From contig NZ_WJPO01000004.1 of the NCBI RefSeq assembly GCF_009649175.1, forward strand, positions 62,001 through 126,000: a DNA stretch of 64,000 bases. Reading direction: 5' to 3'. Under the pieces are notes generated by a model. It was given only the letters and a program-made list of their open reading frames with translations, was not told where the DNA came from and ran no database searches. The translations under genes were made by a program, and so were the position numbers. Numbering within the stretch: the first letter of the stretch is position 1; every line of letters begins with the position of its first letter. This document shows, one piece after another, positions 9,021-12,780 of the stretch. Source of the DNA: Rhodovulum strictum (GTDB taxonomy: Bacteria; Pseudomonadota; Alphaproteobacteria; Rhodobacterales; Rhodobacteraceae).

Positions 9021-9299
9021 TCAGCAGCAGGTCTGTTCGAGATTCCACAGAAGATCCTGCGCGGCCTTGTCGCCGGTTTCCTCGAAGAATGCCATGAGCG
9101 CGTTGACCTGGCTGCCGACGAAATGCAGGTTGTCCGCCCCCATCCGCGTCTTTTCGGCAAGCTTGCGCTCGAAATAGCCGACCCAGCGCGAGTCGGTCCC
9201 GTCCATATGGGCGGCAAGCATCTCCATCAGGCGGTCGGCCTTGCCGGTGCAGTCGAGCCCGAGGAAGCTGACATAGCGGTCGGGGGTCTGGTCGGTCAT
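9021..9299 (-). CDS. cowN: N2-fixation sustaining protein CowN
   Basis: The 92-residue protein matches CowN, the small cytoplasmic protein that lets molybdenum nitrogenase work in the presence of carbon monoxide. Visible family features are the N-terminal D-R-Y-V-S-F-x-G-x-D-C (residues 7-17), the central L-H-F-V-G-x-Q-V-N-x-L-x-x-F-F-E-E and the C-terminal L-x-Q-T-C-C. It follows the CooA-like regulator gene by 96 nt on the same strand. That gap holds a perfect Crp-type palindrome and a -10 candidate, but no sigma-54 -24/-12 element is visible, unlike R. capsulatus where NifA and CooA are both reported to act. No nif genes are in the window. Confidence 0.88.
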   Translation of the reverse strand: MTDQTPDRYVSFLGLDCTGKADRLMEMLAAHMDGTDSRWVGYFERKLAEKTRMGADNLHFVGSQVNALMAFFEETGDKAAQDLLWNLEQTCC

Positions 9300-9366
9300 G
9301 TCGTCATCGTCCCGGTTGGGGCGTCCGGCGCGGGGGGCCGGATCCTGTGAATCCTGAATGCCGAGC

Positions 9367-9372
9367 GTTCTA
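9367..9372 (-). promoter_or_regulatory. Predicted -10 element of cowN
   Basis: Read on the minus strand, TAGAAC at 9372-9367 would place the transcription start at about 9360. The palindrome centre (9401.5) is then at -41.5, the standard class II geometry for Crp/Fnr-type activators. This is inference from spacing. Confidence 0.45.
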
Positions 9373-9392
9373 GTCGGAAATCTGCCGCCTGT

Positions 9393-9410
9393 CTGTCAGC
9401 CAGATGACAG
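9393..9410. promoter_or_regulatory. CooA/Crp-type operator upstream of cowN
   Basis: CTGTCA-N6-TGACAG is a perfect palindrome with 6-bp arms. It matches the TGTCA-N6-(T/C)GACA form recognised by CooA of Rhodospirillum rubrum. It overlaps the stop codon of the regulator gene and ends about 94 bp before cowN. The same bases also fit TGT-N10-ACA, the NifA upstream element, but no sigma-54 promoter accompanies it. Confidence 0.7.
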
Positions 9411-10040
9411 CTCGGCAAGATCGGCAAGACGCTCGGGGCGCAGAAGCCGCAGCTGGCGTCGTCCCGCGCGTTCGATCAGCCCCTCGCGGATCAGCTGGTT
9501 CAAGAGCGTCGAGAGCGTCTGGCGCGAGGTGCCGAGCGCGGTGGCCAGCGCCTCGGTGCTGTCGGCGAGGCGGATCGTGGCGCTGTTCTGGCGGGCGGCC
9601 TCGGCCAGCAGGAAGCGGGCAAGGCGTGCGCCGACCGGGCGGAAGGCCAGATCCTCGATCAGGTCGAGCGCACCGGCCAGCAGAAGCCCGATCTCGCGGA
9701 AGGCGGCGAGGCCCAGATCGGGTTGGCGGGCGATCAGGCGCAGCATCTCGCCGACGGGCCAGGCGACCAAGGTGCAGGGTTCCAGCGCCTCGACCCGGGC
9801 GCGGGTATGGGTGACAAAGACGCCGCCCGGATGCAGATGGCCCAGCGTCAGATCGCGCCCCGCCCCGCTGAGGCAGATCCGGGCGCGGCCTTCGTCCAGA
9901 ACGAACAGCCGGTCGGGACCGTCGCCGGGCTCTGCGATGGTGGCGCCAGCCGGGTAATGGCGCCGGGTGCCGCCATCGAGCCCGGCAAGCCAGTCGGCAT
10001 GGGCGCCGGGGGATGGCCGGCGGTCAGACCCGGGCGGCAT
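9396..10040 (-). CDS. CooA-like CO-sensing Crp/Fnr family regulator
   Basis: The 214-residue Crp/Fnr protein aligns with R. rubrum CooA from end to end. It begins M-P-P, keeping the Pro2 that is an axial heme ligand in CooA. H78 in G-V-F-V-T-H sits where CooA has the ligand His77, next to the shared V-E-A. The hinge helix I-E-D-L-A-F is shared, and the recognition helix reads T-S-R-Q-T-L-S-T. The redox ligand Cys75 of CooA is Val here, as in CooA proteins reported without it. The start is supported by overlap with the preceding gene (stop at 10024). Position directly before cowN supports a CO-response role. Heme binding is inferred. Confidence 0.8.
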   Translation of the reverse strand: MPPGSDRRPSPGAHADWLAGLDGGTRRHYPAGATIAEPGDGPDRLFVLDEGRARICLSGAGRDLTLGHLHPGGVFVTHTRARVEALEPCTLVAWPVGEMLRLIARQPDLGLAAFREIGLLLAGALDLIEDLAFRPVGARLARFLLAEAARQNSATIRLADSTEALATALGTSRQTLSTLLNQLIREGLIERAGRRQLRLLRPERLADLAELSSG

Positions 10041-10995
10041 TGGTCCGGGCCCCGAGCCCGCCGCGCGCCCAGGCCCTGAGGATCGCGACCAGGATCGGCG
10101 GGATTGCCAGCGTGGCCGCGACCAGAACGATCCCGCCCGCGATCCCGATGGCCGTGCCCTGCCCCGGCGCCAGGCCCAGCAGCAGGTTGGCCAGGGCCGC
10201 CAGCGGGAAGGTGAAGGCGCCCCAGAGCGGCGAGAAGCCCGCCTTGATGAGCCAGGGCAGACGGATCAGCAGCCCCGCGCCCAGCAGTCCGGCAAACAGC
10301 GTTGCGGCCCAGCCAAGGCCGGGGTTGTCCAGCGCCAGCGCCACGCTGCCGAGCAGGCAGGCAGGCGCAAGGTGAATGGCAAGCAGCGGGCGCAGGGGCG
10401 CGGGCACATCCTCGCGCAGGAATTGGACAAGGCTCGCGCCCCAGATCGCCAGCGCCGCCGCGCCGGTCACATGAAGCAGCACGCTCGCCAGCGGGGCGAA
10501 ACCCAGCGCCTGCGCGGGCAGCGCGGCGAGGATGAAACCGACGAATTGCAGGTGCCAGACCGGCGTCACGCGGCGCTGTTCGGCCGGGCCACGGATCAGC
10601 GCAGCCAGAACCAGCGCGACAAGACCGGCATGCAGCGCGAGCGCCGCGCCAAGGACGCCCAGCGCCGCCCCCGGGGCAAGGGGCACAAGCGCCGCGGAAA
10701 CGAGATAGGCCGACAGCACCATCGCCGAAAGCCCGGCGCGCCCCGGCAGCACGCGCAGATCCTCGGGCAGGACGCCGGGGCGGCGCACGACTTTCAGCGC
10801 ATAGGACGCCACGCAGAACAGGTAAAGCAGCGTGACCGCGCCCAGGATCAGCTCGCCCACCGCCGGCGGGGCGGCAAGGATGTCCGCGCTCTGGCGCCAG
10901 GCCAGCCCAAGCGCAAGTGCGCCCAGAACGGGCGGAAAGATCGCGGGCGGCGTCTGATCGCCGAAGCGCGGGCGGGGGGCAAGGGGGCGCGACAT
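10024..10995 (-). CDS. TehA/SLAC1-family channel or TDT transporter
   Basis: The 323-residue protein is almost entirely hydrophobic with about ten membrane helices, as in the tellurite-resistance/dicarboxylate (TDT, TehA, SLAC1) family of anion channels. The marker segment W-G-A-F-T-F-P-L-A-A-L-A lies in the C-terminal third. The ATG at 10995 (M-S-R-P-L) is preferred over one at 11073, which would overlap the upstream gene. The stop overlaps the start of the CooA-like gene by 17 nt, implying translational coupling. The transported substrate is unknown. Confidence 0.75.
   Translation of the reverse strand: MSRPLAPRPRFGDQTPPAIFPPVLGALALGLAWRQSADILAAPPAVGELILGAVTLLYLFCVASYALKVVRRPGVLPEDLRVLPGRAGLSAMVLSAYLVSAALVPLAPGAALGVLGAALALHAGLVALVLAALIRGPAEQRRVTPVWHLQFVGFILAALPAQALGFAPLASVLLHVTGAAALAIWGASLVQFLREDVPAPLRPLLAIHLAPACLLGSVALALDNPGLGWAATLFAGLLGAGLLIRLPWLIKAGFSPLWGAFTFPLAALANLLLGLAPGQGTAIGIAGGIVLVAATLAIPPILVAILRAWARGGLGARTNAARV
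10978..10990 (+). repeat. 13-bp dispersed repeat, copy 2
   Basis: An exact GGCAAGGGGGCGC, here lying within the first codons of the TehA/SLAC1-type gene on the opposite strand. Confidence 0.55.
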
Positions 10996-11054
10996 GGGTC
11001 CGATCTGCCATGGCGCGCGCGGCGGGGCAAGCGCGCAGGCCCCGCGGGGAACCG

Positions 11055-12668
11055 TCAGGCGCCGGGCGGCCATTCCGCGCCGCGGGCCTCCATATAGGGA
11101 CGGAAATATTCGCGGAAGGCGGGGAAACCCTCGGCCAGCATCAGGAATTCCTCGCGGTTCAGCACCAGAACCCGTGTGTCCTCGACGGCGCGCACGGTGG
11201 TCTTGCGCCGCGTCGCCCCAAGGATCAGCCGTTCGCCGAAATGCCCGCCGGGGCCGATGCGGCGCAGATGCGTCTGGCCGGTGACGGGATCCTTGCGCTC
11301 CATCTCGACCGCGCCCGAGATCACCGAATAGAACCCGTCAGACCGGTGCCCGGCCTCATAGACGATATCGCCCGCACGGAAATGGGCATAGCGCATCGGC
11401 GGGCGGGGCAGCGCGCGCAATTGCACGACGCTGCGCGCACCCAGCATGTCCAGCGTCCAGTTCACCATCACCTTGATCCGCGTGCCCATCCCCGGCAGCA
11501 GCGCCAGGTAATAGGACCGCCAGAGCACCCAGGCCGGAAATCCGGTCAGTTGCAGCCCGAAGACCTCGGCCACACCCCGATGCGCGCCGAGCGAGGCCAG
11601 CGACCCGCGCGAGCGATAGGCAAAGGGCTGCACCGTCTTGCCCTTGACGGCGGCGGCGATGTTGCGGGCGATAAGCTTGGCCTCGCGCACAGCGAATTGC
11701 GCGGTGGGGGGGGCGTAATCGGCGCGCGCCTCGGCGCCCTCCTTCAGCGGGATCAGTGCGCAATCGCCCAGCGCCCAGACATTCTCGTGCCCCCTGACGC
11801 GCAGCGCGCGGTCCACCGCGATCCGCCCATGCTGGCTGGGCAGGCCCATGCGCGCGACGACCGGCAGGGGCGAATTGCCGATGGTGGCAACGATGGTGCG
11901 GGTGTCGATCACCTCGCCATTGGTGGTGACAAGCTGGGTGGCCGTGGCCGAGGCGACGCCGGTGTTCAGCTTCAGTTCGACCCCGTGGCGGGTCAGGTGA
12001 TCGGCGGCATAGCGCGCCAGCCGCTCGGGCATCTCGTTCAGGATGCGGGGGGCGAATTCGACCAGTTGCACCCGCACCTCCGACGGGTCGATGCGCGGAT
12101 AGAATTTCAGCGAGCGGTCGATCAGTTCCTTCATCTCGCCCACCGTCTCGACGCCCGAGAAGCCGCCGCCGATCACGGTGAAGGTCAGCGCGCCGCGCTT
12201 GGTTTCGGGCACCTGGCTGACCTGGGCATGTTCAAGCTGTTCGATCACATGCTCGCGCAGGCGCCGGGCATCCTCCAGCGTCTTCATCTTGAGCGCATGT
12301 TCCTCAAGCCCCGGGCTGCGCGACAGATCCACCCCCTGCCCCAACGCGATCACGAGATGGTCATAGCGAACCTCGGTCGGGCGGCGCTGGATGCCCTGAA
12401 ACACGGTGACGATGCGGCGTTCGAAATCCACGCTGTCGATCAGCGCCTTGCGCACGAACACGCCCCTGAGCAGGAAGCGCAGCGGCGACACCGCATGGCC
12501 GGGCGTGATCGAGCCCGCGCCGACCTCGGGCAGAAGCGGCTGGAAGACGAAATAGTTGTCGGCATTGATCAACTCGACCCGCACCGACTTGCCCAGCCGC
12601 TTGCGCAGTGCGCGCGCCGCATACATGCCGCCGAAGCCGCCCCCCAGAACGACGATCCGATCCGCCAT
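11055..12668 (-). CDS. Type II NADH dehydrogenase fused to a cyclic-nucleotide-binding domain
   Basis: The 537-residue fusion begins with an NDH-2-like flavoprotein. An FAD motif G-G-G-F-G-G lies at residues 8-13, the NAD motif I-G-G-G-F-S-G near 165, and the A-L-G-D-C-A box that binds FAD near 290. NDH-2 passes electrons from NADH to quinone at the membrane without pumping protons. From about residue 426 to the end is a Crp-type cNMP-binding beta-roll with F-R-A-G-D, G-x-F-Y-x-V-x-x-G and H-F-G-E-R, but no HTH. The start at 12668 is set by the family N-terminus M-A-D-R-I-V-V-L. It heads the minus-strand block leading to cowN. Confidence 0.85.
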   Translation of the reverse strand: MADRIVVLGGGFGGMYAARALRKRLGKSVRVELINADNYFVFQPLLPEVGAGSITPGHAVSPLRFLLRGVFVRKALIDSVDFERRIVTVFQGIQRRPTEVRYDHLVIALGQGVDLSRSPGLEEHALKMKTLEDARRLREHVIEQLEHAQVSQVPETKRGALTFTVIGGGFSGVETVGEMKELIDRSLKFYPRIDPSEVRVQLVEFAPRILNEMPERLARYAADHLTRHGVELKLNTGVASATATQLVTTNGEVIDTRTIVATIGNSPLPVVARMGLPSQHGRIAVDRALRVRGHENVWALGDCALIPLKEGAEARADYAPPTAQFAVREAKLIARNIAAAVKGKTVQPFAYRSRGSLASLGAHRGVAEVFGLQLTGFPAWVLWRSYYLALLPGMGTRIKVMVNWTLDMLGARSVVQLRALPRPPMRYAHFRAGDIVYEAGHRSDGFYSVISGAVEMERKDPVTGQTHLRRIGPGGHFGERLILGATRRKTTVRAVEDTRVLVLNREEFLMLAEGFPAFREYFRPYMEARGAEWPPGA

Positions 12669-12780
12669 GGCGATCCCTTTCTTGCTGCGGCGCAGCATAG
12701 CGCATCCGGCGCCGCGGGCCAGCGTCATTCGCCGCATGCCGCGATTGCCCTTTTCGCAAGGCTGTGGCAAGGCCCGCCCG

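Follow-up and report, generated by a model that had tools for sequence, protein, structure and literature searches.

A CooA-type regulator is encoded beside cowN

This locus of Rhodovulum strictum raises two linked questions: whether the Crp/Fnr-type regulator encoded next to cowN belongs to the CooA family and activates this gene directly in response to CO, and whether CO is the only signal involved. It lies in a window of 64 kb (the whole stretch of DNA analysed), in which the genes follow one another in the order NDH2-like, tehA-like, cooA, cowN, guaB and rsmB (Table 1).

Table 1. Coordinates and supporting evidence for the features of the cooA-cowN locus (window numbering)
Feature	Position	Strand	Evidence or remarks
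cooA, putative CO-sensing Crp/Fnr activator, 214 aa	9396..10040	-	PDB sequence search, profile search, column counts
cowN, nitrogenase-protecting protein, 92 aa	9021..9299	-	NCBIfam NF033689, 108 bits (cut-off 48); Pfam CowN PF20543, 111.6 bits
SLAC1/TehA-like membrane protein gene	10024..11073	-	shares 17 nt with the start of cooA
NDH-2-like oxidoreductase (Pyr_redox_2, NDH2_C) with C-terminal cNMP-binding domain	11055..12770	-	
Predicted CooA operator CTGTCA-N6-TGACAG	9393..9410		exact palindrome, spans the last cooA codons and stop
Predicted -10 of the cowN promoter, TAGAAC	9367..9372	-	fixed 20-nt TA spacing in 17/20 loci
Weak -35-like hexamer CAGACA	9390..9395	-	17 nt before the -10, overlaps the operator; 4/6 match to TTGACA

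The first-pass annotation had described a 214-residue Crp/Fnr protein with His78 at the position of the heme ligand His77 of R. rubrum CooA (RrCooA), adjacent to cowN. Both features of the regulator were found again, and the neighbouring gene passes two curated CowN models. The Pfam domains of the regulator, PF00027 (45.8 bits) and PF13545 (54.8 bits), both score above their cut-offs and form the Crp/Fnr architecture of a cNMP-binding-like sensor followed by HTH_Crp. In a sequence search of the PDB the four top matches were CooA chains, with E-values of 1.6e-23 for CooA-1 of C. hydrogenoformans (ChCooA) and 1.8e-18 for RrCooA, against 8.2e-10 for the best non-CooA match, a global nitrogen regulator. 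A profile built from 11 relatives widened this lead (3.4e-36 and 1.5e-27 for CooA, 8.1e-14 for the best non-CooA protein). The window regulator is 28% identical to RrCooA and 30% to ChCooA, which share 32% with each other. By structure, CooA occupied Foldseek ranks 1 to 3 and came top in VIA-align with a Z of 17.4, little separated from the FNR structures that followed at 16.4. Residues 1-13 of the AlphaFold model, where the second heme ligand would be situated, have a pLDDT below 50. Finally, forcing the 21 CooA rows of the tree into one clade was not rejected (p-AU 0.323), which is no proof of a clade; in the best tree one long-branch outgroup (L039) fell among the CooAs and the deep branching was poorly supported. 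The tree is thus compatible with CooA kinship and not decisive.

Among 19 cowN-linked regulators, His78, Gly118 (Gly117 of the RrCooA C-helix) and the recognition-helix residues Arg173-Gln174-Thr175 and Ser177 are kept in every one, the latter with identical letters in RrCooA and ChCooA. The position of RrCooA Cys75 is never Cys in this set; 18 proteins have Val there, among them the window protein (Val76), and one has Ser. Since the Cys75/His77 ligand exchange is called unique to RrCooA (PMC6955866, in excerpt), loss of Cys75 does not exclude CooA. According to the same source, the ligands of ChCooA are Ala2 and His82, and no such ligand transfer takes place there. With Val at this position, an R. 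rubrum-type Cys-to-His exchange upon reduction is not expected, and heme ligation in the window protein should resemble the C. hydrogenoformans type, for which no exchange is reported.

The N-terminal distal heme ligand is Pro2 in RrCooA and Ala2 in ChCooA (PMC6955866, in excerpt). The window regulator begins with MPPG, from an ATG that is the sole in-frame ATG, GTG or TTG start before the conserved domain. The letters MPP result, however, from reading in another frame the 3' end of the tehA-like gene, which overlaps cooA and is conserved there (ACC AAT GCC GCC), and Pro2 occurs in 6 of 20 loci, the window included (starts were picked by eye and several are unsure), the second residue varying among the relatives. 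Pro2 is therefore compatible with CooA, as weak and non-diagnostic evidence. Of the three residues that the annotation had singled out for comparison with characterised CooA proteins, His77 is conserved, Cys75 is replaced by Val, and Pro2 is present and poorly conserved in the subfamily.

A conserved palindrome is placed for class II activation of cowN

The 12-base palindrome that the annotation had located over the regulator stop is exact and occurs once in the 3.8-Mb genome, the reversed-pattern control giving 0. Its relaxed form, TGTCR-N6-YGACA, has no other match within the window. A palindrome of the form TGTC-N8-GACA(G) was present in all 20 cooA-cowN loci examined, with a TA exactly 20 nt after it in 17, at 21 nt in two and absent in one, Cereibacter changlensis. 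The -10 assignment of the annotation agrees with this spacing, from which we deduce a predicted cowN +1 at 9360 and a palindrome centre at 9401.5, that is -41.5, the class II position. In the 20 cooA-bearing loci the -35 region matches TTGACA at a mean of 2.25 of 6 positions.

Nineteen distinct loci were assembled by merging 15 loci from a regulator-profile scan of named genomes (two R. capsulatus strains and three Oceanospirillaceae among them) with the Rhodovulum loci. In these 19, TA stood at 20 nt in 16, whereas it occurs in the background at a rate of 0.009; the binomial value of 2.9e-30 is indicative only, as the loci are related and two are nearly identical. The twentieth, from Rhodobacter sp. 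CZR27, was found after the rule had been set, by a DNA query spanning the site and also by each protein alone, and fits the palindrome and the 20-nt TA exactly. Plasmid searches with each protein gave one record only.

TGTC-N8-GACA was found in every one of 11 loci in which cooA adjoins cowN, and in none of the six Rhodovulum cowN loci that lack cooA; a further sub-cut-off cowN-like match with no cooA (L015), left out of the six, is also devoid of it. The search of the class gave four more distant cowN loci, with no cooA match nearby; the three in which cowN or the strand could be placed (L059, L060 and L061) had no TGTC-N8-GACA either, this count leaving out L062, which tblastn did not align. 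In the 16 Rhodovulum genomes a composite operator/-10 pattern gave 12 matches (reversed control, 2). Nine of them lie at cowN, one in each of the nine genomes that carry cooA, and the other three are scattered (in G295, G296 and this genome), so CooA in Rhodovulum seems, from the distribution of these sites, to have one conserved target, cowN. The scattered match in this genome (G000:C5:42989-43028), away from cowN, may be due to chance or mark a further CooA target.

cooA and cowN are neighbours in nine of 16 Rhodovulum genomes

Of 16 Rhodovulum genomes, 15 carry cowN and the same 15 have nifD above cut-off. cooA is found in nine, each time adjoining cowN; a tenth regulator match (G298) was rejected, being a different Crp/Fnr protein that matches at 31%. 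CooS CO dehydrogenase was found in none of the 16. cowN also adjoins the regulator gene in each of the 15 loci that the profile scan brought up. Elsewhere both genes are rare: in the family 3 of 295 genomes carry cowN and in the class 5 of 385, and the regulator (E 1e-20 or better) was detected in 2 of 292 genomes of the order, this genome being counted each time.

The order tehA-cooA-cowN recurs in the eight other cooA-bearing Rhodovulum loci. In the window the NDH-2-like reading frame and the tehA-like gene also share 19 nt, and NDH2, tehA and cooA may therefore form one operon. In three loci with a gap between tehA and cooA (L045, L046 and L069), TAGGCT stands a few bases before the cooA ATG, which suggests leaderless cooA transcripts in these species. 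Two loci (L064 and L063) break the synteny tehA-cowN-guaB: in G296 cowN has no tehA match at its side, and in G295 guaB is without a match in the stretch. In this genome nifHD lies on another contig (C49) than cooA-cowN. A second nifH-like gene (G000:C5:71882-74997; 367 bits, under the nifH cut-off) has a weak nifD-like neighbour, and these genes possibly encode a nitrogenase-like reductase.

Sigma-54 sites and the question of nitrogen control

The annotation had seen no sigma-54 promoter and had concluded that cowN may answer to CO alone. We scanned for sigma-54 sites with our own position weights, set from the consensus; as controls, the nifH promoter of this genome scored 16.2 bits, and those of R. 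capsulatus nifH and fdxD 16.2 and 16.8. On the cooA-cowN strand of the window, from 13600 to 8901, no site above 11.1 bits was found, a score near background, as that strand has 9 sites per 64 kb at 10 bits or more. In two R. capsulatus strains the corresponding strand, taken from nifH to cowN, reached at best 8.1 and 8.5 bits. In this species NifA reportedly activates cooA, and CooA activates cowN directly. Its cowN has been published as "NifA- and CooA-coordinated" (a title in the reference list of PMC8047169). The negative scan therefore cannot separate control by CO only from control by NifA plus CO, and the conclusion drawn from it in the annotation is unsupported.

Within the palindrome, at 9394-9409, the TGT-N10-ACA pattern of NifA is present; this is a weak sign, as any TGTCA-N6-TGACA fits it. 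A scan reaching as far as 1.6 kb ahead of cooA in 18 loci gave three that reach 14 bits, from Mangrovicoccus, Poseidonocella and R. steppense. The site in the first two (L051 and L052) scores 14.8 bits directly before cooA, which suggests nitrogen control of cooA in these two. The R. steppense match, at -641 inside the tehA-like gene and with TGT-N10-ACA downstream of it, was not taken to be functional. In G. diazotrophicus, nitrogen-fixing conditions induce cowN and CO induces it further, whereas in cells replete with ammonium CowN did not rise with CO (PMC8047169, in excerpt).

Rhodovulum relatives that keep cowN and lack cooA

Six Rhodovulum genomes (G295, G296, G301, G304, G305 and G308) keep nifD and cowN, while cooA and the palindrome are absent. 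Before cowN, five of the six carry [CT][TA]GAC[AG]-N17/18-TA, with the TA at 17 nt in four and at 18 nt in one. In those five, [CT][TA]GAC[AG] is the sole copy within 150 nt before cowN, and the other spacings from 8 to 31 nt score none. None of 2000 shuffled sets reached five such loci, a figure that is overstated because the pattern was picked by eye after the loci had been viewed. G308, in which cowN starts 63 nt after the tehA-like gene, does not show the pattern. The -35 hexamers of the five loci match TTGACA at 3-5 of 6 positions, above the mean of the cooA-bearing loci, the window itself standing at 4; the -10 hexamers of the cooA-less loci are weak (2-3 of 6). General promoter scores beat those of shuffled sequences in none of the six (fractions 0.075 to 0.605).

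These sites raise the possibility, which we hold to be somewhat short of even, that CooA and its operator were lost in Rhodovulum while cowN and nitrogenase were kept, the cowN promoter, once of class II, activated by CO and poor in its -35, turning into a factor-independent sigma-70 promoter with a better one (CTGACA-N17-TA). With a pattern chosen by eye and general scores no better than shuffles, such a promoter conversion is put forward only as a hypothesis. On the nifD tree three changes of cooA state are needed, and monophyly of cooA within Rhodovulum was not rejected (p-AU 0.205), so loss and regain both fit its history. A four-base deletion turning a half-site into a -35 was also considered and set aside, as the in-place improvement of a CAGAAC-like hexamer is equally good.

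RcoM, considered as a substitute CO sensor, is not visible as one in the cooA-less genomes. LytTR proteins occur in 8 of the 16 Rhodovulum genomes, four with cooA and four lacking it, and by their coordinates none lies beside cowN. The cooA-less genomes have six of them, two with MHYT and LytTR domains and four with LytTR alone, none with PAS; none was found in G295 and G296. The MHYT-LytTR proteins (L105 and L106) are membrane regulators of G305 and G308, encoded away from cowN.

Proposed mechanism and alternative explanations

We consider it very probable that nitrogenase protection has a private CO switch at this locus, in which CooA directly activates cowN. The kinship to CooA, the heme histidine, the recognition helix, the operator, the -41.5 geometry and the single conserved target can all be read from the sequence. 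By analogy with its relatives, the window protein would bind heme, respond to CO and activate transcription. CooA would thus be a heme-containing Crp/Fnr dimer in which CO displaces the N-terminal heme ligand; the CO-bound form would bind the palindrome at -41.5 and recruit sigma-70 RNA polymerase to the cowN promoter by class II activation, and CowN would be made once CO threatens the Mo-nitrogenase.

This switch could itself be subordinate to nitrogen regulation: NifA, or a different nitrogen signal, would set the expression of cooA or cowN, and CO would then trigger cowN. Such a layering is compatible with a CooA switch, and we find the case for it evenly poised. It is the published pattern in R. 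capsulatus and G. diazotrophicus (PMC8047169, in excerpt), it agrees with the head-to-head position of R. capsulatus cooA with a ferredoxin-like gene, nifH and nifD and with the sigma-54 sites right before cooA in Mangrovicoccus and Poseidonocella, and the operator fits the NifA pattern. In the window, however, the cooA-cowN strand rises little above background in the sigma-54 scan, and cooA overlaps the tehA-like gene, on a contig that differs from that of nifHD. These last observations speak for the version of the annotation, in which cowN would be controlled by CO with no nitrogen input; yet the R. capsulatus strains are equally bare despite their NifA-coordinated promoter, which leaves the negative scan with little weight, and we regard control by CO alone as rather unlikely.

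That the regulator senses NO, redox state or heme itself instead of CO appears very improbable. HcpR, which is also among the PDB structure matches, is a heme-dependent NO regulator of the Crp/Fnr type (PMC12750200, in excerpt), and the loss of Cys75 and the variable Pro2 would allow another signal; but the searches place CooA first, far in front of the other Crp/Fnr members, the sole conserved target is a CO-protection gene, and CooA control of cowN is called "consistent with regulation in R. capsulatus" (PMC8047169, in excerpt). We also weighed whether the palindrome could be an accident of the conserved coding sequence at the cooA C-terminus (Leu-Ser-X-Gly-stop), since it overlaps the last cooA codons in most loci. 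The CAG past the stop is nevertheless conserved among the loci, the palindrome of Oceanobacter mangrovi stands clear of the cooA coding sequence, and the spacing to the downstream TA is fixed, so we give this explanation hardly any credence.

The CooA-cowN switch is real and well conserved, and of an ordinary, already-known type. Its architecture (operator, -41.5 spacing and one conserved target) is now described over 20 loci, including three from Oceanospirillaceae, and the cowN-linked CooAs examined share the absence of Cys75. Among the papers listed on CooA with cowN, on cowN with nitrogenase and on Rhodovulum nitrogen fixation with CO, no title or abstract opening describes the module in Rhodovulum. 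The parts worth following are the conserved geometry and the possible promoter conversion in the relatives. Rhodovulum offers a direct comparison, within one genus, of a CO-regulated and an apparently unregulated cowN, which bears on a role of CowN in the absence of external CO, a possibility raised in PMC8047169 (in excerpt). If the promoter conversion is true, the cooA-less species would form a natural series of a gas-inducible gene becoming constitutive, and CowN would perhaps be needed even when no CO comes from outside.

Comparison with known systems

The cooA-cowN pair of R. capsulatus, whose cooA we take to be RCC00574, has the same adjacent, same-strand order, with a regulator 60% identical to that of the window, an MPP start and Val at the Cys75 position. 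It also carries TGTCATCCGGCTGACAG over the cooA stop, with TATGAA exactly 20 nt on. It differs in that its cooA is head to head with the ferredoxin-like gene, presumably fdxD, and with nifH and nifD, whereas in the window cooA overlaps the tehA-like gene and guaB comes after cowN. RCC00574 is listed as a member of the Crp/Fnr family (PMC9603854, in excerpt). In the algH-cooA-cowN cluster of G. diazotrophicus a CooA site, tGTCg-N6-tGACa, similarly lies 60 bp before cowN and overlaps a TGT-N10-ACA NifA site; the differences are the algH gene in the cluster and a cooA that is likely RpoN dependent there (PMC8047169, in excerpt). The CooA proteins of R. rubrum and C. hydrogenoformans share with the window protein the fold, the heme His, the C-helix Gly and the RQT and S of the recognition helix, but both have Cys where the window protein has Val. 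RrCooA differs further in targeting CO dehydrogenase and hydrogenase genes (PMC9603854 and PMC4257681, in excerpt), whereas the 16 Rhodovulum genomes gave no CooS. In Rubrivivax gelatinosus, which unlike the present case also oxidises CO through its coo genes and has rcoM in the cluster, the adjacency of cooA and cowN has likewise been taken to suggest CooA control of cowN (PMC4257681, in excerpt).
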